Shown here: positions 39,772 to 48,956 of the stretch, one piece after another
How the letters are laid out: each line of letters begins with the position of its first letter
Position numbering within the stretch: position 1 is the first letter of the stretch
Assembly: GCA_002238415.1 (NCBI GenBank)
Contig: MPMI01000020.1
Span: 1 to 64,000, forward strand
From: Desulfurellaceae bacterium bin18
GTDB taxonomy: Bacteria; Desulfobacterota; Binatia; Bin18
DNA: 64,000 nt
Direction: 5' to 3'
Program-made: the position numbers and the translations under genes
Notes under the pieces: model-generated
What the model saw: the letters and a program-made list of their open reading frames with translations, nothing else
The model's database searches: none
What the model was told of the DNA's origin: nothing

Positions 39772-40319
39772 CTTCAATGAGGCCCAGGCATGTCCGCCTG
39801 GGATATTCTCCATCAGCATATCCTGCTTGAGTTGCTGATACGTGCTTCAATGAGGCCCAGACCTGTCCGCCTGGGATATTCTTTGACGTAGGCACGGCTG
39901 GTGTAGCCGTCACCGTTGCTTCAATGAGGCCCAAGCGTGTCCGCCTGGGATATTCGCGCATCCGGCGCAAACCACCTAAAGGCGGTAGTGCTTCAATGAG
40001 GCCCAAGCGTGTCCGCCTGGGATATTCATGGCGTGGCTGGCCAACCAAGTGACGGCTCGGCTGCTTCAATGAGGCCCAAGCGTGTCCGCCTGGGATATTC
40101 GTAAGGCAGAGCAGTCAAACTCACCTTGCAACGAACTTCAATGAGGCCCAAGCGTGTCCGCCTGGGATATTCAAGATATTCTCCGTGACAAAGACACCAT
40201 CCGTATACTTCAATGAGGCCCAAGCGTGTCCGCCTGGGATATTCTCGACTGGAAAGTTGACTTACCATATTACAACATCGTACTTCAATGAGGCCCAAGC
40301 GTGTCCGCCTGGGATATTC
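39772..40319 (-). CRISPR. Type I-G CRISPR array, 8 repeats and 7 spacers
   Basis: Repeats are 37 bp, starting CTTCAATGAGGCCCAAGCG on the plus strand and ending CCGCCTGGGATATTC. They begin at 39772, 39845, 39919, 39991, 40064, 40136, 40208 and 40283. Spacers are 36, 37, 35, 36, 35, 35 and 38 bp. The last six repeats are identical; the first two (39772, 39845) diverge in the centre, which marks them as the old, distal end. The leader is therefore on the csb2 side and the array is read on the minus strand with the cas genes. In that orientation the repeat ends in ATTGAAG and contains a hairpin CCCAGGCG-GACA-CGCTTGGG. Confidence 0.97.
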
Positions 40320-40577: not shown

Positions 40578-42743
40578 TCAGCCTACCGCACCAAAAAGGC
40601 CGCCTCCCTTATGGCTATCGCGGCCAAGCATGACCGGTCCCTCAACTGCCACAGCGAAGCGAAGGCGCACTCGGGCCGCTAAGCCACAGTTTGGACCGAT
40701 GTTGAGTTCCAACAACTCGGCTTCGGGCTTGGGCAGACCGCGCCGCTCGCATTCGGATATGATGTCTTGCACGACGAAGGCGTCCGTTCTTTTGCTCCTT
40801 CCCGTATGGCGTGTCGGACGATAAAGGGTGCGACTTTCCCATACGCGGGAAGGACCGACGAGCGGGTCGCCCGTCGCCAGGGCATACGCGGGACCGAGAG
40901 TCAGAACGCCGAGCGGGCCGGCGCGCACACTGGTCAGGGTCGGGACTACGCCGTCAAAATGGGTCCGGTCCTCACGGCTTCCTTGTGTGGTACGGTCACA
41001 GGCCCACGGCGCGGCTACGATCAAGCGGTCAATGCGCCCATCCTCGTCTGTGTCATCCGTAGCGAGAAAAATATGCTCATGCCTACCCGATCCCGCCGGT
41101 GCTCCATCAGGCTCATGCCCGGAAAAAAGCCGAGGCACACGGCCCTGTTTATCTTCTGACAGTGCCATCAGTGCACGTCTGACCGCGTGCAGGAGAAGTG
41201 CGGAATCGGTAGTGGCAATGTTTGTCCTAGACGCTATAGAGAAGGCCAGCGCGTCGTGTGAGACATCCTTTCGCGGTGCCATCAGACCCAGGCCGAGATA
41301 ACGTCCGTTCCCGATGACGAGGGGGCCACGCACAGCTTGCGAGAAAGCAATCTCCACGTGATGTAATCCACGTGTCACATATCGTTCGGGCATGGCAAAT
41401 TCTTCTGCCCGTGCGCCGTTCCGGTCGAATGGCTCGCGTTGTACGCGAATGGACGCTACCGGCACTGACACTCCAATATGACGCAACGCCTGCATGACAG
41501 CACGGGCCGCCTTTGCCTCACCGGCTACGCGCTTGGCTCCGGTCGTTTCGCGTCCCGTCCGCATGACCGGCAGAGCAACCGGAGTGACCGTGCGCCAGAC
41601 GCGGAACCCATGCTGTTCCTTGTCGTCAATGCCATAGTGCTCAAGCATGCCGTGCTCTTCAGACCGAATGAGATTCCACAGAATTTCTCCTGTTGTGGGA
41701 TGAGTCTCTGTGAGCCCGGAGAACGCCCAGCCTATGTCATCGGCTCGCAGTGGGCAGTTCGATGGTACATCTATCAGGACGCGGCGAACGGCGTGGTCCG
41801 CATGGTTATGACCGATGGACGGGAGGGGCAGAATACGCACACGGGCGGCCTTGTCGGCCTCTGTTGCGTTGCGACCAATCAACACGCGGTCTATCGTCCC
41901 AGCCGCCTCGGGCAACGCCTCTTTCAGCCGACTCACGGCCTTGTCGCGTACATTGAGGACGAGTCCCGTTACCCGCTCGGACGGCCACGGCGCAAAAGAT
42001 TCGGATGTAGCCGCCCGTATCTCGAATAGAAAGCGGCGTGATGGCGTGGCGTATGCAACTGTGGCAAAGCGGGGCTTGGGAGATTGAGAGAAAATTTGCT
42101 GAATCTTTCTGCCCTGCTTTACGGAGGTAAAGCGCGTCCTGTCTGCGTCGTATCGTTCTTTGAGGCTTGCTAGCGATCCTTTCTTCGGACAAAGCAGGGC
42201 CTTGCCAGTCCCGTTCTGGCTCGGGCGATACACCACACCACCATGACGGGCGAGTCGTGGTGCAATCTCGCCCGCGTCCAGGATTTCCGCCCAAGTCCAG
42301 GCCATATCGACGCCTCGCCCGAGTTGATACAGCCGCTCAGCGATCCGGCAGATAGTCTGCGCATAGTTTTCAGCACTCACGTTGCCGGTGAACTTCCAGA
42401 TAAACAGCAGCGGAATTTCCACATTGAAAATATGAGAATGGATGGTCTTGGGAGTACGAATCTTGTTGATCTTTCTTACGTCGCCACCGTACTTGTCGAG
42501 ATCGTTGTTTGGCACAAAGCTCTTGAAGGCTCGGCCGGCGCGGACCGCAGGTGCGGCAATTACCGGCGCTTCAAGCGTCTCCAGCCATTCAAGCGCGGCT
42601 TTGTCTGTGTCTGATAGCTCAGAGCCTTTGGCAGTACCGGCAACCAGTGCTTGAAACAGCCGGGCCGGCGCTGGCGGCCAATCCCCAGTGCCATGATACC
42701 GCCCGTCGTGGAAGCGGATTGAGAGAAGGAGCGCGCGGCTCAT
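40578..42743 (-). CDS. csb2: Type I-G Cascade protein Csb2 (Cas5-Cas6 fusion, GSU0054 family)
   Basis: Csb2 joins a Cas5-like part and a Cas6-like pre-crRNA nuclease. The 721-residue protein starts with the family's MSRALLLSIRFHDGRYHG and PPAPARLFQALVAG, where a Cas5-type fold is expected. The C-terminal half holds a RAMP-like domain ending in the Gly-rich stretch HKGGGLFGAVG. It is the last cas gene before the leader and is 3 bp from csb1. The array hairpin is its expected substrate. I cannot point to the catalytic His with certainty. Confidence 0.9.
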   Translation of the reverse strand: MSRALLLSIRFHDGRYHGTGDWPPAPARLFQALVAGTAKGSELSDTDKAALEWLETLEAPVIAAPAVRAGRAFKSFVPNNDLDKYGGDVRKINKIRTPKTIHSHIFNVEIPLLFIWKFTGNVSAENYAQTICRIAERLYQLGRGVDMAWTWAEILDAGEIAPRLARHGGVVYRPSQNGTGKALLCPKKGSLASLKERYDADRTRFTSVKQGRKIQQIFSQSPKPRFATVAYATPSRRFLFEIRAATSESFAPWPSERVTGLVLNVRDKAVSRLKEALPEAAGTIDRVLIGRNATEADKAARVRILPLPSIGHNHADHAVRRVLIDVPSNCPLRADDIGWAFSGLTETHPTTGEILWNLIRSEEHGMLEHYGIDDKEQHGFRVWRTVTPVALPVMRTGRETTGAKRVAGEAKAARAVMQALRHIGVSVPVASIRVQREPFDRNGARAEEFAMPERYVTRGLHHVEIAFSQAVRGPLVIGNGRYLGLGLMAPRKDVSHDALAFSIASRTNIATTDSALLLHAVRRALMALSEDKQGRVPRLFSGHEPDGAPAGSGRHEHIFLATDDTDEDGRIDRLIVAAPWACDRTTQGSREDRTHFDGVVPTLTSVRAGPLGVLTLGPAYALATGDPLVGPSRVWESRTLYRPTRHTGRSKRTDAFVVQDIISECERRGLPKPEAELLELNIGPNCGLAARVRLRFAVAVEGPVMLGRDSHKGGGLFGAVG

Positions 42744-42746
42744 AGT

Positions 42747-43901
42747 TCAGGCCGTGCCTTCCTCATCTTCCGTCTTCTTAGCGAGCAGCTTCTTAGCCTC
42801 TGTTAAGTCGAACTTATGGGTCAACTCCTCGGGCCATTGCTCACTGAAAGGTTTGACGGATTCCTTCGCGTAATCAAGCAGGGTTTTCCGAGCTTTTCCC
42901 GATGACAAATCAACGGGCTCTATCTCACCCCGCCGAGGGATAGCGTACCAGCGATCATCGTCGGCATATCGAAGGTGGCATCCCTCGCGCAGGAACAAAT
43001 CGATTTCGGCTGTTGCTGCAATCAGCGTAAGTGCAAGAAGATACCGCCGCACAGGTTTCGTTTTCTCTTGATTGGCACCATTTATTGTACGTAATGCAAC
43101 GAGGTTGACGGTAACATCACGCTCAATCGACCCGCTTGCTAGCACGCCGCCAAGAACCCTTGCTTCCGGGTTAGGAGACCCGTCAAGGTATTGGGCAATC
43201 TTGGTCTTTCGGAATGTAGACGGAGCATCTGCAAAACCCTTCTCCGACAGTTTTGTCTTCTTCGCTTTGGCTTCTTTATCCAGTTCTTTCTGCTGGCTCT
43301 CATCGAGAGCTTTCCACACAGAATTGAATTGCGCTGCCACATGAAGTGGCTGAACGTCTTGGGCGCGAATAATCGACCGTACTAAACGAGGGTGCCTTTC
43401 GCTTGACTCACCGCGTGAATCCCAGAAACCAAACACAAGAGATGTAGGTGCCAACTGGCATAGCGGTCCAGCATCGCCACGTTGCTTCAGCGCGCGGAAA
43501 GCCTTCTCTATGCAGGGTGCAAGTGTCGGACACGAATAAACGACAGCATCGGCGCTCCTGTGGGCGAGATCGAGAAGGGAACGCCTCTCTACGTGTTTCT
43601 CGCCGTCGTGTTCCTTGGTGTGCAACTCGATTTCAATCTGCGGGACGAGTGCCGAGTATGGCTCACACTTGAAAATCGGCTCCATACGGTTGGCCTGGGA
43701 ACCCACGCTGTCAATCAGGGCAACCTTCGTTCCATCGGAGAGCGCGTCGATGTTGTAGCCGATGTCGGCATAGGTCGGCGGAAAGATGATCCCGCCTTCT
43801 CCCTCAACAGGCAGAAGCTTCTGTTTCAGATGTAAGGCCACGGGACCGCCGTCGTCGGCCCAGGCATTGATGGTGTCGTGTGTGAGGTCGGTCATAGTCA
43901 A
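42747..43901 (-). CDS. csb1: Type I-G Cascade backbone protein Csb1 (Cas7, GSU0053 family)
   Basis: Csb1 is the Cas7-like subunit that coats the crRNA in I-G effector complexes. The 384-residue product has family-typical stretches: VEGEGGIIFPPTYA, IDSVGSQANRMEPIF, DLAHRSADAVVYS and SLVFGFWDSRGE, followed by LVRSIIRAQDV. The C-terminal region is Lys/Glu-rich. ATG overlaps the csb3 stop (ATGA) and csb2 follows after 3 bp, so the three Cascade genes are translationally coupled. Confidence 0.93.
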   Translation of the reverse strand: MTMTDLTHDTINAWADDGGPVALHLKQKLLPVEGEGGIIFPPTYADIGYNIDALSDGTKVALIDSVGSQANRMEPIFKCEPYSALVPQIEIELHTKEHDGEKHVERRSLLDLAHRSADAVVYSCPTLAPCIEKAFRALKQRGDAGPLCQLAPTSLVFGFWDSRGESSERHPRLVRSIIRAQDVQPLHVAAQFNSVWKALDESQQKELDKEAKAKKTKLSEKGFADAPSTFRKTKIAQYLDGSPNPEARVLGGVLASGSIERDVTVNLVALRTINGANQEKTKPVRRYLLALTLIAATAEIDLFLREGCHLRYADDDRWYAIPRRGEIEPVDLSSGKARKTLLDYAKESVKPFSEQWPEELTHKFDLTEAKKLLAKKTEDEEGTA

Positions 43902-44767
43902 ATCTCCTGTTCTGCGAAAGTGACAATTTTGTTTTCGCCCGCCTTGTCCAACTCAAAGCGGAACCGTTTCAGAGGTACTCCAGAGACGGCACCCGCAAGG
44001 GCGACACGGGCCAGTATGGGCGGAAGGACAACTCCCCACGCCGCGTAACGGACTTTGCGAGTCTCGTATTCGTTTGGACGAGCGTTCTCCAGAGCCCAAG
44101 TCGTAAGAATTTCGACAACCGGAGAAGCCGCGACTTGGTGCTTTTGTTTATTCGGCGAATAGCCCGTGCCAATCGCAGTCCACCCGCCCCGCGGGTCAAA
44201 ATTAAAACTGCCGCTCATAGGTGTAGTAATACCAAAAGGTCGCTCAATGAGATCGTTTCGTCTTTCTGTCCAGAGCTGGACAATACCTTGAAGCATCGCG
44301 CCGGCAATTTGGTAAGCGGACCGATTGCCGGCATACAGCTTGAAGTCATTGCGACTGGAGCCGTCAGCCCAATGGCTAAGCTCGATTGCAAACCTGCTCT
44401 CACCACTGAGACAAATGGGCAACGCCATTTTTGTGGCGCTGGTTTTGTGGGCCGGAAAGGTATCACGCAACTCAAGCTTATTCTCCTCTGCCATCTTGCC
44501 CTTCTTGCGCGTCTTTGGCGGTGGTTCCGAGTAGCCGACTGGTCCCCAACGCCGTGGTTTTGTATTCGCCAGGAAACCCAACACTGTCTCGAAGGGATTT
44601 CTGGCGCTGCCCGCTCGCAAGCAGAACCTCGTCTCCGCTTCGTCACTCCAATCGAAACCCCCTTCGGCGTCGCCACAGAGCACGTCGGCAGCTTCCAGGA
44701 AGCCGAGACAGGCGAAGACTTGGCCTGGGTTGAAGAGGTCTACAGGAATCGAAGATTCGGCCATCAC
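43898..44767 (-). CDS. csb3: Type I-G Cascade protein Csb3 (Cas8-like, GSU0052 family)
   Basis: The 289-residue protein matches Csb3/Cas8u2: PGQVFACLGFLEAADVLCGD at the start, the W...F/YSxP region, then HWADGSSRNDFKLYAGNRSA, and PMSGSFNFDPRGGWTAIGTG in the second half. It presumably takes the large-subunit role in target recognition. The start is GTG 44767 or the adjacent ATG 44764; the cas3 TGA overlaps this pair. Position between cas3 and csb1 equals the Geobacter-type order (GSU0051-0054). Confidence 0.88.
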   Translation of the reverse strand: MMAESSIPVDLFNPGQVFACLGFLEAADVLCGDAEGGFDWSDEAETRFCLRAGSARNPFETVLGFLANTKPRRWGPVGYSEPPPKTRKKGKMAEENKLELRDTFPAHKTSATKMALPICLSGESRFAIELSHWADGSSRNDFKLYAGNRSAYQIAGAMLQGIVQLWTERRNDLIERPFGITTPMSGSFNFDPRGGWTAIGTGYSPNKQKHQVAASPVVEILTTWALENARPNEYETRKVRYAAWGVVLPPILARVALAGAVSGVPLKRFRFELDKAGENKIVTFAEQEI

Positions 44768-47532
44768 GCATCCTTCTCGGCGTCGTACTCAAACCGCTTC
44801 CCGCGCTCATCGTTGTCACGCGAAGCTTGCTGGTCTGCGGCACGCAACAACGCTTCCCACCACGCCAGACCCCATGGTCCCCAGCGCTTTTGAAGTTGCG
44901 CAAACCGTAGCGCGATGTTGCGAGCGCGTTTTTCCAAAACGGAGGGTGGTTCGTCGCAGCCGCGTATGGAAATGACAGGCCGCGCCCAGCCGTGATGTGC
45001 TGCGACTAGATGCAGGGCGAGGTCCTGAAGGTGAGGGGGTAGCGCTCTGAAACCCTCATCCTCCTCAGCGTAGGGCAGCGAACCAAACTCATGGCGGTAG
45101 CCGTCAAGCAGTTTGGTATTCATCCATCTGTCAGTCTTGGCGTAGAATTTTCCGTCAACTGGGACTTTGGCGGCCTGCTGCCAGCGCTTGTGACGTTTGC
45201 CTTCGTCGTGCAGCTTGGCGGCTGTGGCGAGCATGTCGGCATATTCACCCGGTAAGCCGATTGTGTCAGCCAAGGTGCGAGCCTTGCGTTCGGTCCAGGT
45301 GTGGTGCTCGGTCAGTTCTTGCAGATGCCCGACGGAGCGGTCGTCCTCGGTTTCTGCGTCGTGACGCCATTTCTCAACGATCAGAAAACGTTGCGCTTCT
45401 CCTTCGTCTGATTGCTTAGTGATGAAACGGTATCGCTCCCGCCAATCGCCGTCCGATGTGGGGCCTTCTTCTCCGGTAACGGAACGCACCCGAAACCGAA
45501 TGACAGGCTTATCGTCTTGTGGAGGCAGCCATTCCTGACCGTCGTCAATGACACGTGGGGAACTATCGGCATTTTCGTCGGTCCTCTTCTGTTCTTTATC
45601 TTTAAGTAAGCCGTCGGAAAGACCACCGAGGCGGGCATCCACGACCAATGTTCCGCCAATCAGACTCTCCTTCAAATTCTCCTTGGTCCTCTTCTGTTCT
45701 TTCGCATCCCCTTGGACAAGACTGTATCCGTGTACTGTGTCCCGTAAATCTCTTGAGAGTGACAAAATGTACGCAATAACGTCCTTCCGCCCCAGCGTCT
45801 CTGTGTTGCCAACCCCATCTTGGGGATGGTTTCTCACCGCCTTCTCAGTGCGTTTCACGAGCCAGTCAACTACCCTGTAAGTCTCGGTTTCGAGTTTTTC
45901 ACTGGCATGTGGCGGTGCCGCTTCAAAGAAGGCTTCAACGTCTTTTCCCGCTGCTTCTGTCCCATCTCTACGCACGGGCAGATACTTACGCCAGACGACT
46001 GTGGTTTGCGGCTTCTGGTCTTCCTCCCAACCGCGCAACCAGGGTTGGATATCGTCCGGGCGTCCCGTGTGTTTATCCAGCGAGGTCAGCGACCACGCAT
46101 CGACGAGGGCACGGGTCAACGCTGGACGTAACGGCACCGGCGTTGTTGCCGCTTCAAGCGCGTTTTGCAGTTCCGAACAGTTTTCTGCGCGTTCTTTGAG
46201 TTCCAGGATCGCGCTGGGGCTTGCGTCCCGCTCGTCCTGCACGTCAACACCGCGCAGGCTGTCCAACGGTTTGCGGAGGCGGGCCAAGCGTTCTTTCCAC
46301 TGCTCTTCCCACTCTTCAGCCTTTTTCTGGGCGTTGGGTTTTTTTGTGCGTGGCGCGGCAATGACCTCAATACGGGCATCTCCCTTACCGCGCCGATTCA
46401 CACGGCCCAGCCGCTGCACCATGCGTTCCCACGCAACCAAGTCGCAGACCATGTGGTCGGCGTCCAGATCAACGCCTACTTCGCCCGCCGAGGTCGCAAT
46501 CAGAAAGGTCGGCTGCTCAGGCTTTGCCTCAGTGCCCCCCAGGAAACCGTGCGTCTTCAACCAACCAAAGAGGGCTTCCCGCTCAAATACCCGTCGCCCG
46601 CCAACCAGAAGTTCGGGCACATGGCCGCGTTTTTCTTTTTTGCACTTCTTGTCGATCTCGCTCTTTACCTTCACGGCTTCGTCTCGGTGGTGGCAATAGA
46701 CCAGGACGCGAGCCGGCCCTTGCTCATTGCCGAGACTCCACGCTCGCTCGACAAGCTGCGGCACAAGCTCCGGCGCATCGTCAAATGTCTGGACCACAAG
46801 CCGCTTACGGGCATCAAGGCGTTTCTTGACGGTTTCATCCGCCTTATCTTCGGACGAAAGTCGAAAGACCGTTTTGTCGTTCAAGCTGTCTGAGCTATCT
46901 TCGCGTCCGGTGGCCGACAACGAGAGTAGCTTGAGGGACGGCACAATCTTTCTAGCCTCGCGCTTACGTGGGCCAAATGCCTCGGCTCCGTTTGTTATTG
47001 CTTCAAGGAGTTTTTCAAATGGCGGAACCAAATGCGCTTCGTCAAGCACAACCAGGGTGTCCGCCCCGAGCAAACCAGCGTGGTAGGGCCTCATTTTGCG
47101 CGACACGCCGTAACCCGAGAACAACAGCCGCGAGCCGATCATGTCTACAGTACCGACAATGATGACCGGTGCAGCCGGGTCGGCCAGCCATTCCCGGTTG
47201 TCCACATGCTGGCCGCGTAGCGTGCTCACGCGCAATGCGGAGTCTTGCGATTTCTCTCGAATCTCATCGGCAACAGTGGTCGCTTGATCGACCACCGCTC
47301 GTCTATCGACCACATAGACCAGACGCCGGGGGACTTTGGCTCCAGCCGTTCGGGCCATATACCAGAGAATCATGACAGAGGTCTTGCCTAGACCGGTTGG
47401 AATATCCAGTGCGGCAGGGACATGGCCCTTGGCAAAATGCTCGTAAAAGAGACGCCGCTGCCAGCAAAATGGCGAGTTGCCGGTCAGCGCTTTGAACCGG
47501 TTGTGAAAGTGACCAGAAGTCTCGGAATCCAT
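44764..47532 (-). CDS. cas3: CRISPR-associated helicase-nuclease Cas3 (I-G, helicase then HD)
   Basis: Cas3 unwinds and degrades the target DNA. The 922-residue protein has Walker A DIPTGLGKTSV near residue 45, DEAH box LVVLDEAHLVPP, motif III SATGRE, motif V SAGEVGVDLDAD and motif VI QRLGRVNRRGKG. The HD nuclease is at the C-terminus: EHHTWTERKARTLAD, KLHDEGKRHKRW near residue 770 and AAHHGW. This helicase-HD order is typical of I-U/I-G Cas3. The middle shows a charged low-complexity stretch (KEQKRTKENLKE and KEQKRTDENADS). It follows the phosphoribosyltransferase by 14 bp. Confidence 0.95.
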   Translation of the reverse strand: MDSETSGHFHNRFKALTGNSPFCWQRRLFYEHFAKGHVPAALDIPTGLGKTSVMILWYMARTAGAKVPRRLVYVVDRRAVVDQATTVADEIREKSQDSALRVSTLRGQHVDNREWLADPAAPVIIVGTVDMIGSRLLFSGYGVSRKMRPYHAGLLGADTLVVLDEAHLVPPFEKLLEAITNGAEAFGPRKREARKIVPSLKLLSLSATGREDSSDSLNDKTVFRLSSEDKADETVKKRLDARKRLVVQTFDDAPELVPQLVERAWSLGNEQGPARVLVYCHHRDEAVKVKSEIDKKCKKEKRGHVPELLVGGRRVFEREALFGWLKTHGFLGGTEAKPEQPTFLIATSAGEVGVDLDADHMVCDLVAWERMVQRLGRVNRRGKGDARIEVIAAPRTKKPNAQKKAEEWEEQWKERLARLRKPLDSLRGVDVQDERDASPSAILELKERAENCSELQNALEAATTPVPLRPALTRALVDAWSLTSLDKHTGRPDDIQPWLRGWEEDQKPQTTVVWRKYLPVRRDGTEAAGKDVEAFFEAAPPHASEKLETETYRVVDWLVKRTEKAVRNHPQDGVGNTETLGRKDVIAYILSLSRDLRDTVHGYSLVQGDAKEQKRTKENLKESLIGGTLVVDARLGGLSDGLLKDKEQKRTDENADSSPRVIDDGQEWLPPQDDKPVIRFRVRSVTGEEGPTSDGDWRERYRFITKQSDEGEAQRFLIVEKWRHDAETEDDRSVGHLQELTEHHTWTERKARTLADTIGLPGEYADMLATAAKLHDEGKRHKRWQQAAKVPVDGKFYAKTDRWMNTKLLDGYRHEFGSLPYAEEDEGFRALPPHLQDLALHLVAAHHGWARPVISIRGCDEPPSVLEKRARNIALRFAQLQKRWGPWGLAWWEALLRAADQQASRDNDERGKRFEYDAEKDA

Positions 47533-47533
47533 T

Positions 47534-47743
47534 TTATACGTCGTTCTTATCCGTAAGGATTGCGCGTGCGACCTCGGCGACTTCCTTCTTGCTTTGCCGC
47601 AGCAAGCCTATTTCGTATGGTGTCAACATCCGGGGAGCGGGTGAGGTACCGAGCCTCCGATTGAGTAAGGCAATCGAAGGAGTGCCCGAAATGTTCTTGC
47701 CACCATTCTTCAAAGTCCGCTCCGTGTCGTTGTCGGAGTTCAT
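47534..47743 (-). CDS. Possible 69-residue ORF overlapping the phosphoribosyltransferase 3' end
   Basis: In another frame, ATG 47743 lies 7 bp after AAAGGAG. The product ends with PYEIGLLRQSKKEVAEVARA and a few more residues, and its TAA is one base from the cas3 ATG (TAAAATG). It overlaps the phosphoribosyltransferase for 197 bp. The strong ribosome-binding site and its place at cas3, which lacks its own clear site, suggest a coupling peptide. It may also be chance, as the same bases encode a plausible phosphoribosyltransferase C-terminus. Confidence 0.35.
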   Translation of the reverse strand: MNSDNDTERTLKNGGKNISGTPSIALLNRRLGTSPAPRMLTPYEIGLLRQSKKEVAEVARAILTDKNDV

Positions 47744-48320
47744 AGAGTTGCTCCTTTGATGGACTCAGTTTAGCGGAATAAGGTTTGCCGGTCAGCACAA
47801 TGGCTCCGACAGCCCTGCCCTCCTGTTTTTCTATCCAGCCACGCAGATTCGCCAGGGTGCCTCCCTGCCCGACGAAGTCGTCCACCATCACGTATTCACG
47901 GTCCCTATCGACCTGCCCCCCGAAACAGGCTTGACGGGCGAGGCGGCCATAACCATCCGCACTCGTATGGGAAACGATATTGGTTTGTACAACGACGGTC
48001 TCATACGGGATACCGGTCCGTTCGCTCAGGAATGAAGCCAATGCGCCTGGAATTGCGTTGACACCGTGGCGTTCGTAAGCGTGAGCGCTGACGAACATGG
48101 GAGTATCGCTTGTACTGACGGCAGCGATCAATGTTCGAACCGTATCCACCCCTGTTTCGTCAACTATCCGACTGACCAGACTCGTCGCGGCCCTCACATC
48201 GCCCGCCTTCGCCCGGGAATAGTCGGGATGTCGCTTGGCTGCTAATTCATCAGCTAGCAACACGGCATCCGGGAACGCTTTCCAGGCTGCTCTTGGGGGA
48301 TACATCGCCGCCTTTTCCAT
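47547..48320 (-). CDS. Phosphoribosyltransferase-fold protein leading the cas operon
   Basis: The 257-residue product has a type I phosphoribosyltransferase PRPP loop, VMVDDFVGQGGT (residues 144-155), preceded by beta/alpha elements and followed by AIVLTGKPYS. N- and C-terminal parts are specific (FGHSFDCLTQSEARYLTRSP near 215-235). ATG 48320 lacks a ribosome-binding site; ATG 48305 has AAGGCGG upstream and could be the real start. It is read with cas3, 14 bp apart. It could make or salvage a nucleotide, or act in conflict signalling with the CRISPR system; the role is unknown. It is not a standard I-G gene. Confidence 0.75.
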   Translation of the reverse strand: MEKAAMYPPRAAWKAFPDAVLLADELAAKRHPDYSRAKAGDVRAATSLVSRIVDETGVDTVRTLIAAVSTSDTPMFVSAHAYERHGVNAIPGALASFLSERTGIPYETVVVQTNIVSHTSADGYGRLARQACFGGQVDRDREYVMVDDFVGQGGTLANLRGWIEKQEGRAVGAIVLTGKPYSAKLSPSKEQLYELRQRHGADFEEWWQEHFGHSFDCLTQSEARYLTRSPDVDTIRNRLAAAKQEGSRRGRTRNPYG

Positions 48321-48956
48321 ATTGAGGTGGTGTAAAAATGTTCTCGACTGGAAGATATATCACTTCATAACGGAGGTGAACGGTAGTAGCAGGACTGGAA
48401 AAGTTGATATTGCTCCAAGGAGGGGACTTTTTGCGGCAAGGCCATCTCTCGGACAAGGGGAGGCGGGGTGCGGCTTCAGTGAGTCCAGCCCAAAATCGAC
48501 GCCAAACCGCCCCCGCGACAAGACTAAAAAACGCCCTAAACAGCGCCCTAAGATCAAGATTTTAGGCCGATTTTAGCCTAAAACAAGGTGAAAATACGTG
48601 AAAAATCGTCTTTTGGAGCAGGAATTTTCATTCTGCGTGAAAAATTGCCTAAGAGGCTGATTTTAGGGCACTTTTTGCCTCTTTTGGGATATTTGAGGGC
48701 GTTTTCGTGTGAAATATTTCGCGATTTCTCGGGTTCTCAGGGAAAGTGGTCCTGAATTTTGCAACAAAATGGCTCCCGATTTTCGTAATTTCTCATGTAG
48801 AGGACTGACGACCGGCACGGCGCCTCCGACTGTAGGCTGATGAGAAGCGGTGCTGGGTGTGCCATGCACGCCCCGTTATATCTTCGCCTCCTCCTAGCCA
48901 TGCACCTCCAGCCGCTGGTATAAGTTGCGATATGAGCCAGTGACACAGGAGCCCAG
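48321..48956. other. Divergent 636-bp gap with GATTTTAG/CTAAAAC repeats
   Basis: This separates the cas operon (minus) from the DUF58 operon (plus) and holds no convincing gene. About 48530-48720 is AT-rich with many short repeats: ACGCCCTAAA, GCGCCCTAAG, GATTTTAGGCC, GATTTTAGCC, TGCCTAAGAG, TGATTTTAGGGC. TTTTAGGC (48560-48567) and GCCTAAAA (48576-48583) are inverted arms. CGTGAAAAAT occurs at about 48597 and 48635, and GAAATATTTC near 48711 is a palindrome. The promoters of both operons should lie here. A second possibility is a scar of insertion of the cas locus. Confidence 0.5.

Follow-up and report, generated by a model that had tools for sequence, protein, structure and literature searches.

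A mobile-element phosphoribosyltransferase and an overlapping small gene at the head of a type I-G cas operon

Among the type I CRISPR subtypes, I-G is the one least understood (PMC9638904). The effector genes cas3g, cas8g, cas7g and csb2 described for Thioalkalivibrio sulfidiphilus (PMC9638904) were also found in a stretch of 64,000 nucleotides from Desulfurellaceae bacterium bin18 (contig MPMI01000020.1, positions 1 to 64,000; the window in the following). Unlike in T. sulfidiphilus, the operon is here headed by a gene for a phosphoribosyltransferase (PRT) and a small gene overlapping it in the +1 frame, orfB, and in relatives PRT is also found inside Csb2; the word "phosphoribosyl" is absent from the T. 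sulfidiphilus study (PMC9638904). Comparison of sequences places PRT in a phage and plasmid family, its type I-G copies in a single clade and several of these in frame within Csb2, and indicates that the +1 gene is conserved and was kept after loss of PRT. The most likely explanation is that a toxin-like enzyme of mobile elements, with a small cognate regulator, was adopted by type I-G systems.

The KfrC proteins of IncP-type and IncU (RA3) plasmids resemble the enzyme investigated here in the PRT domain (approx. 38% seq. id.), the catalytic DD motif and an orfB-like +1 frame, but have an extra C-terminal region and a role in partition and conjugation (PMC8124265), without a link to CRISPR. 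The PRT domains of phage MuF and polyvalent proteins (PMC5512222) likewise belong to PHROG 22413, and the I-G copies are nested among them, but these domains are fused to head proteins or part of very large proteins; the section of that study on phosphoribosyltransferases mentions neither an association with CRISPR nor an overlapping gene. Phosphoribosyltransferase effectors of type III-A retrons also operate within a defence system, but assignment to this group was rejected, as there was only a weak local match (30 residues, E 0.004). No reverse transcriptase was recognised in the operon, whose members are cas genes (the rest of the genome was not searched). The idea of a toxic partner guarding cas genes is shared with the CreTA guards of CRISPR-Cas, which differ in being RNA-based and using ectopic repeats (PMC9458426); a guard RNA of this kind was rejected, as no ectopic repeat was found and the best match outside the array (21/37) was at noise level. 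No link between PRT and type I-G was found in the open-access literature, subscription journals and preprints lying largely beyond the reach of the search. The orfB overlap and the retention of orfB after PRT loss are newly described here, and as the literature covered was mostly open-access, this judgement of novelty is provisional.

The phosphoribosyltransferase and its family

The PRT gene (47547..48320, minus strand, ATG start) encodes a predicted type I phosphoribosyltransferase of 257 aa. Its phosphoribosyl pyrophosphate (PRPP) loop, VDDFVGQGGT, was identified from the sequence and the alignment as residues 146–155 (47856..47885, minus strand), and D147, D148, G153 and T155 were invariant in an alignment of 21 relatives. 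As an earlier note on this DNA had pointed out, the gene precedes cas3 on the same strand by 14 bp, which is the distance from the PRT stop codon to the cas3 ATG at 47532. The phrog_22413 profile covers residues 17–250 in a whole-domain match (E 1.1e-60), whereas the only Pfam match was faint (PF00156, E 0.004). An AlphaFold2 model built from the 21 relatives had a predicted local distance difference test (pLDDT) score of 90.2 and a predicted template modelling score of 0.88. The best Foldseek matches of the model in the PDB were ComF, followed by the adenine, xanthine and orotate phosphoribosyltransferases (APRT, XPRT and OPRT) and PurR.

The identity of approx. 38% to KfrC "stable inheritance" proteins of IncP-type plasmids also holds for the C-terminal part of a phage head protein. 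Other relatives are encoded by solo genes on Acinetobacter plasmids or form the C-terminal part of phage head-morphogenesis (MuF) proteins and of very large phage proteins. With relatives of these kinds, PRT fits the mobile-element phosphoribosyltransferase group of Iyer et al. (PMC5512222), and profile, model and tree assign it to the family comprising PHROG 22413, KfrC and the MuF domains; a PRPP-dependent activity is predicted. Upstream of the gene, at 48547–48680, the sequence CCTAAGAxxxxGATTTTAGG occurs in two imperfect copies of 33 bp, close to terminator-like hairpins.

The overlapping gene orfB

The second gene, orfB (47534..47743, minus strand), would encode a protein of 69 aa in the +1 frame. 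It overlaps the last 197 bp of the PRT gene, its TAA stop codon ends one base ahead of the cas3 ATG, and a Shine-Dalgarno-like AAAGGAG (47751..47757, minus strand) lies 7 nt before its ATG. Purine-rich sites resembling it are found ahead of the orfB start in most I-G relatives. When the relatives were compared at their 3' ends, a conserved frame emerged at +1, ...RMLTPSEIxLLRQSKxE..., and the +1 frame was open in 20 of 20 representatives, which were initially gathered by motif, whereas the +2 frame was closed in all. The motif was also found outside the motif-collected set, in Moraxella phage Mcat8 and in L034; among the remaining relatives read, it was absent from a Porphyrobacter plasmid gene and the distant L081.

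Codon use in the PRT frame also points to a second coding constraint. When PRT codons were reshuffled synonymously according to each gene's own usage, the joint log10 P for the orfB frame was -16, a value that overstates the effect to the degree that the sequences are kin. A strong bias in codon choice sets in at PRT residue 203 and persists as far as the end; R221, for instance, is encoded by CGA in 82% and D218 by GAC in 27/27 (trimmed-alignment numbering). In the Csb2 fusions described below, third positions of the PRT frame were variable in 59/60 control codons versus 21/49 codons of the orfB core (P 1e-11, with non-independent columns and sequences). Pairwise rates at codon positions 1/2/3 in these fusions changed from 0.18/0.14/0.45 to 0.31/0.20/0.22 in orfB and to 0.27/0.26/0.54 past its stop, and a direct test of the shift from position 1 to position 3 at the orfB end did not by itself reach significance (P 0.57). 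By its start and Shine-Dalgarno-like site, the synonymous constraint and homologues elsewhere, orfB qualifies as a conserved, putatively protein-coding overlapping gene, which is presumably expressed and which none of the annotations or family libraries examined includes.

The conserved internal Met lies 38 codons downstream of the start in I-G copies and 31–32 in most phage and solo copies. A start at this Met was rejected, as the constraint begins further upstream and the upstream ATG has the Shine-Dalgarno-like site; copies lacking the Met, moreover, still have an upstream start. A programmed frameshift into orfB was likewise rejected, since no conserved slippery site was seen and free-standing copies argue against it. 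The earlier note had regarded the C-terminal LTQSEARYLTRSP region of PRT as seemingly specific to the subgroup, which proved incorrect, as phage relatives carry the counterpart LTESEARYL; its striking conservation is explained in part by the same DNA encoding a putative second protein in the +1 frame.

That the constraint reflects an RNA or DNA signal, such as an integrase site or a regulatory hairpin, instead of a second protein is suggested by the 54 nt that precede the internal Met, where the constraint is strong at each of the three codon positions. This explanation is highly improbable given the consistently open frame with its start and ribosome-binding motif, the absence of a common hairpin in single-sequence folds, and amino-acid conservation which continues beyond the PRT stop, in free-standing copies and in plasmid microproteins, some with RefSeq accessions.

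Occurrence in type I-G loci, with and without PRT

PRT relatives were collected by a context-blind pattern scan of one genome for each of approx. 85,000 species; the patterns were derived from this PRT and reach only its close relatives. Type I-G loci from several phyla house 14 of the 19 close relatives (L002–L013, L015 and L017), and in nine of these loci PRT is in the same frame as Csb2 (L002–L005, L008, L009 and L011–L013). In a further locus, L020, a PRT remnant runs into a stretch like that following PRT in the fusions. In the phylogenetic tree, all I-G copies formed one clade (support 99/97) nested within the mobile-element PRTs. The Csb2-fused PRTs did not form a clade of their own (approximately unbiased test, p 0.0009), because the solo copy of genome G257 groups with the fused copy of the same genome. 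The view that PRT is an unassigned type I-G partner, put forward from this one locus, is thus supported by the count of loci, the in-frame insertions and the single clade. The earlier note had also taken a mostly non-defence setting of homologues as speaking against such a partnership; this applies to the distant relatives, which are largely genes of phages and plasmids, but the close clade does not follow it.

The fused Csb2-PRT open reading frames are approx. 780–830 aa long in eight of the nine loci, that of L013 being broken upstream. PRT interrupts the Csb2 profile in frame at approx. 225–250 of 492, between the Cas5 and Cas6 parts and near the published boundary of these parts in the T. 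sulfidiphilus protein (linker boundary R260; PMC9638904). L005, L008 and L009 derive from chromosome-level assemblies, which makes assembly error an unlikely cause of the fusions. An AlphaFold2 model of a whole fusion was too poor for use (pLDDT 46). In L006, L007, L010 and G257, PRT is a separate gene next to I-G genes, whose order differs between loci. As a background, any I-G csb2 was found in 20 of 369 sampled gammaproteobacterial genomes, and random by-phylum sampling for further PRTs gave 1/247 and 1/297. The association of the PRT module with type I-G is real; like the gene anatomy, it rests on comparative sequence analysis.

In several loci, orfB was found without an intact PRT. The closest relative, L017, has a cas3g of 72% identity; its PRT lacks 523 bp, approx. 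codons 8 to 173, while the leader, the Shine-Dalgarno-like site, the entire orfB and the cas3 junction are retained. L015 lacks the N-terminal half of PRT and keeps orfB, G868 has orfB alone ahead of cas3g, and in G251 an additional orfB, whose PRT is lost, precedes the first. The orfB frame was better conserved than the PRT frame both in G868 (27/38 vs 18/37) and in the second G251 copy (34/38 vs 26/37). Related systems have taken different courses, some building PRT into the core CRISPR protein Csb2 and others losing PRT and keeping orfB. Two gammaproteobacterial genomes, L089 and L090, carry 3'-end fragments of PRT with an open orfB frame between csb2 and cas4-1.

A +1 orfB-like frame also extends through the KfrC-type genes of plasmids that were read, among them L159 and L164 (pUZ8002 and an RA3-type plasmid). 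Free-standing orfB-like proteins of approx. 45–85 aa are encoded on small plasmids beside recombinase or relaxase genes (L168, L170, L171 and L172) and have the motif LTPxEIEALRxDMRxAxEW; some copies are unannotated and some have accessions (WP_167699514.1, WP_047698093.1, WP_172687388.1).

The operon on the minus strand of the window has the order PRT, cas3g, csb3, csb1, csb2, followed by the CRISPR array. It comprises cas3g (44764..47532, 922 aa; NCBIfam TIGR02621, E 7e-182), cas8g/csb3 (43898..44767, 289 aa; TIGR04106, E 3.9e-46), cas7g/csb1 (42747..43901, 384 aa; TIGR02570, E 9e-30) and cas5-6g/csb2, here without a PRT insert (40578..42743, 721 aa; TIGR02165, E 1.3e-105). All four were typed as I-G by both NCBIfam and PADLOC, each above the NCBIfam I-G cut-off, and the locus is a type I-G effector operon. 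The cas genes had been described as overlapping, which holds for cas3g/csb3 and csb3/csb1 (4 bp each) but not for csb1/csb2, separated by a 3-bp gap. Within the window, the neighbourhood of the operon showed no open reading frame for cas4-1 or cas2, genes that are usual but not needed to define the effector type. The array (39772..40319, strand not assigned) has eight repeats of 37 bp and directly follows csb2, without adaptation genes alongside; Cas1 matches lie on other contigs (C75, C74 and C20). The genome has one copy each of PRT and csb2. The Csb2 protein appears to contain a tandem Cas6, residues 1–490 matching the whole Cas5-6 family and residues 496–719 its Cas6 part again; similar Csb2 proteins of 733–734 aa occur in two other genomes, and several genomes have a separate extra Cas6-like open reading frame nearby.

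Possible roles of the pair

We propose, with a probability of roughly 0.4, that PRT and orfB form an overlapping module, derived from the phage and plasmid PRT family and adopted by type I-G, in which a harmful enzyme is paired with a small cognate regulator. PRT would use PRPP to act on a nucleotide or nucleic acid of the host or the invader and would be harmful if unrestrained; orfB, made from the same message just ahead of cas3, would restrain it in the manner of an antitoxin or immunity protein. The pair might either guard the cas operon or act as an accessory effector, which in the case of the Csb2 fusions would be borne on the complex. Both the toxicity and its neutralisation are inferred. 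Two adjacent genes on the same strand, one of them small and overlapping the other by 197 bp, have a toxin-antitoxin layout, which also suggests their co-transcription. Overproduction of RA3 KfrC impairs growth, and that of a DDT to AAA mutant does not (PMC8124265). The earlier note had suggested that PRT might modify nucleotides, regulate the system or act as an abortive effector; the published work on KfrC favours, by analogy, a toxin-like role. The retention of the small partner where the large one is lost (L017, L015, G868 and the second G251 copy) is suggestive of a toxin-antitoxin pair. A more specific proposal is more tentative: type I-G would carry a previously undescribed effector module of a PRPP-dependent toxic enzyme and its antitoxin in overlapping frames, and in some lineages the whole pair would lie inside the gene of the crRNA-processing subunit Csb2. 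One stretch of DNA would then encode both a toxin-bearing Cascade subunit and, in a different frame, the antitoxin.

Several observations weigh against a harmful enzyme with its regulator. The module appears in only a minority of I-G systems: among the 20 gammaproteobacterial genomes with I-G, one (G868) has it beside cas3, as orfB only, and in another (G846) PRT is on another contig. No known antitoxin family was matched by orfB (nothing significant in Pfam, NCBIfam or PHROGs); a KfrC-type relative gave a weak hint of a VC1465-type Xer factor (E 0.04). PRT in KfrC sits in a partition and conjugation setting, and orfB-like microproteins also occur on small plasmids without PRT, so that orfB may serve a job unrelated to PRT.

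The main rival takes up this last point: orfB would be the part that type I-G needs, either as a stand-alone antidote to phage-injected MuF-PRT effectors or as a regulator or partner of Cas proteins, and PRT would have come along and be in the process of being lost. The intact orfB genes beside deleted or degraded PRTs, the better conservation of their frame after PRT loss and the solitary plasmid proteins all fit, but most I-G loci keep an intact PRT whose active site is invariant, and decay by itself does not account for in-frame PRTs retained inside Csb2 across several phyla; we regard this account as rather unlikely. Still less probable is a non-toxic PRT that makes or removes a nucleotide in immunity, or that senses PRPP or guanosine tetraphosphate (ppGpp) and tunes cas expression like PurR. 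The fold and PRPP loop are compatible with this, PurR bound to cPRPP or ppGpp is among the Foldseek neighbours, and Iyer et al. suggested that members of the family produce or sense nucleotides (PMC5512222); yet the 257-aa model shows no apparent DNA-binding domain, and the growth defect caused by KfrC depends on the DDT motif (PMC8124265). PRT might also be a passenger left at a defence locus by a phage or plasmid, without a role in I-G, as its relatives are mostly mobile-element genes, most I-G loci lack the module and remnants occur. Nine in-frame Csb2 insertions with a retained active site, and a single clade spanning several phyla and I-G loci of different gene orders, make this very unlikely.

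A conflict enzyme of phages and plasmids joined to Csb2 would provide type I-G with a second output, of a non-nuclease kind. As the orfB-like frame is located within kfrC, deletions of kfrC remove it as well. With such a gene under kfrC of well-known plasmids (IncP pUZ8002 and RA3-type IncU), the published kfrC deletions and DDT mutants may be re-read for effects on it.
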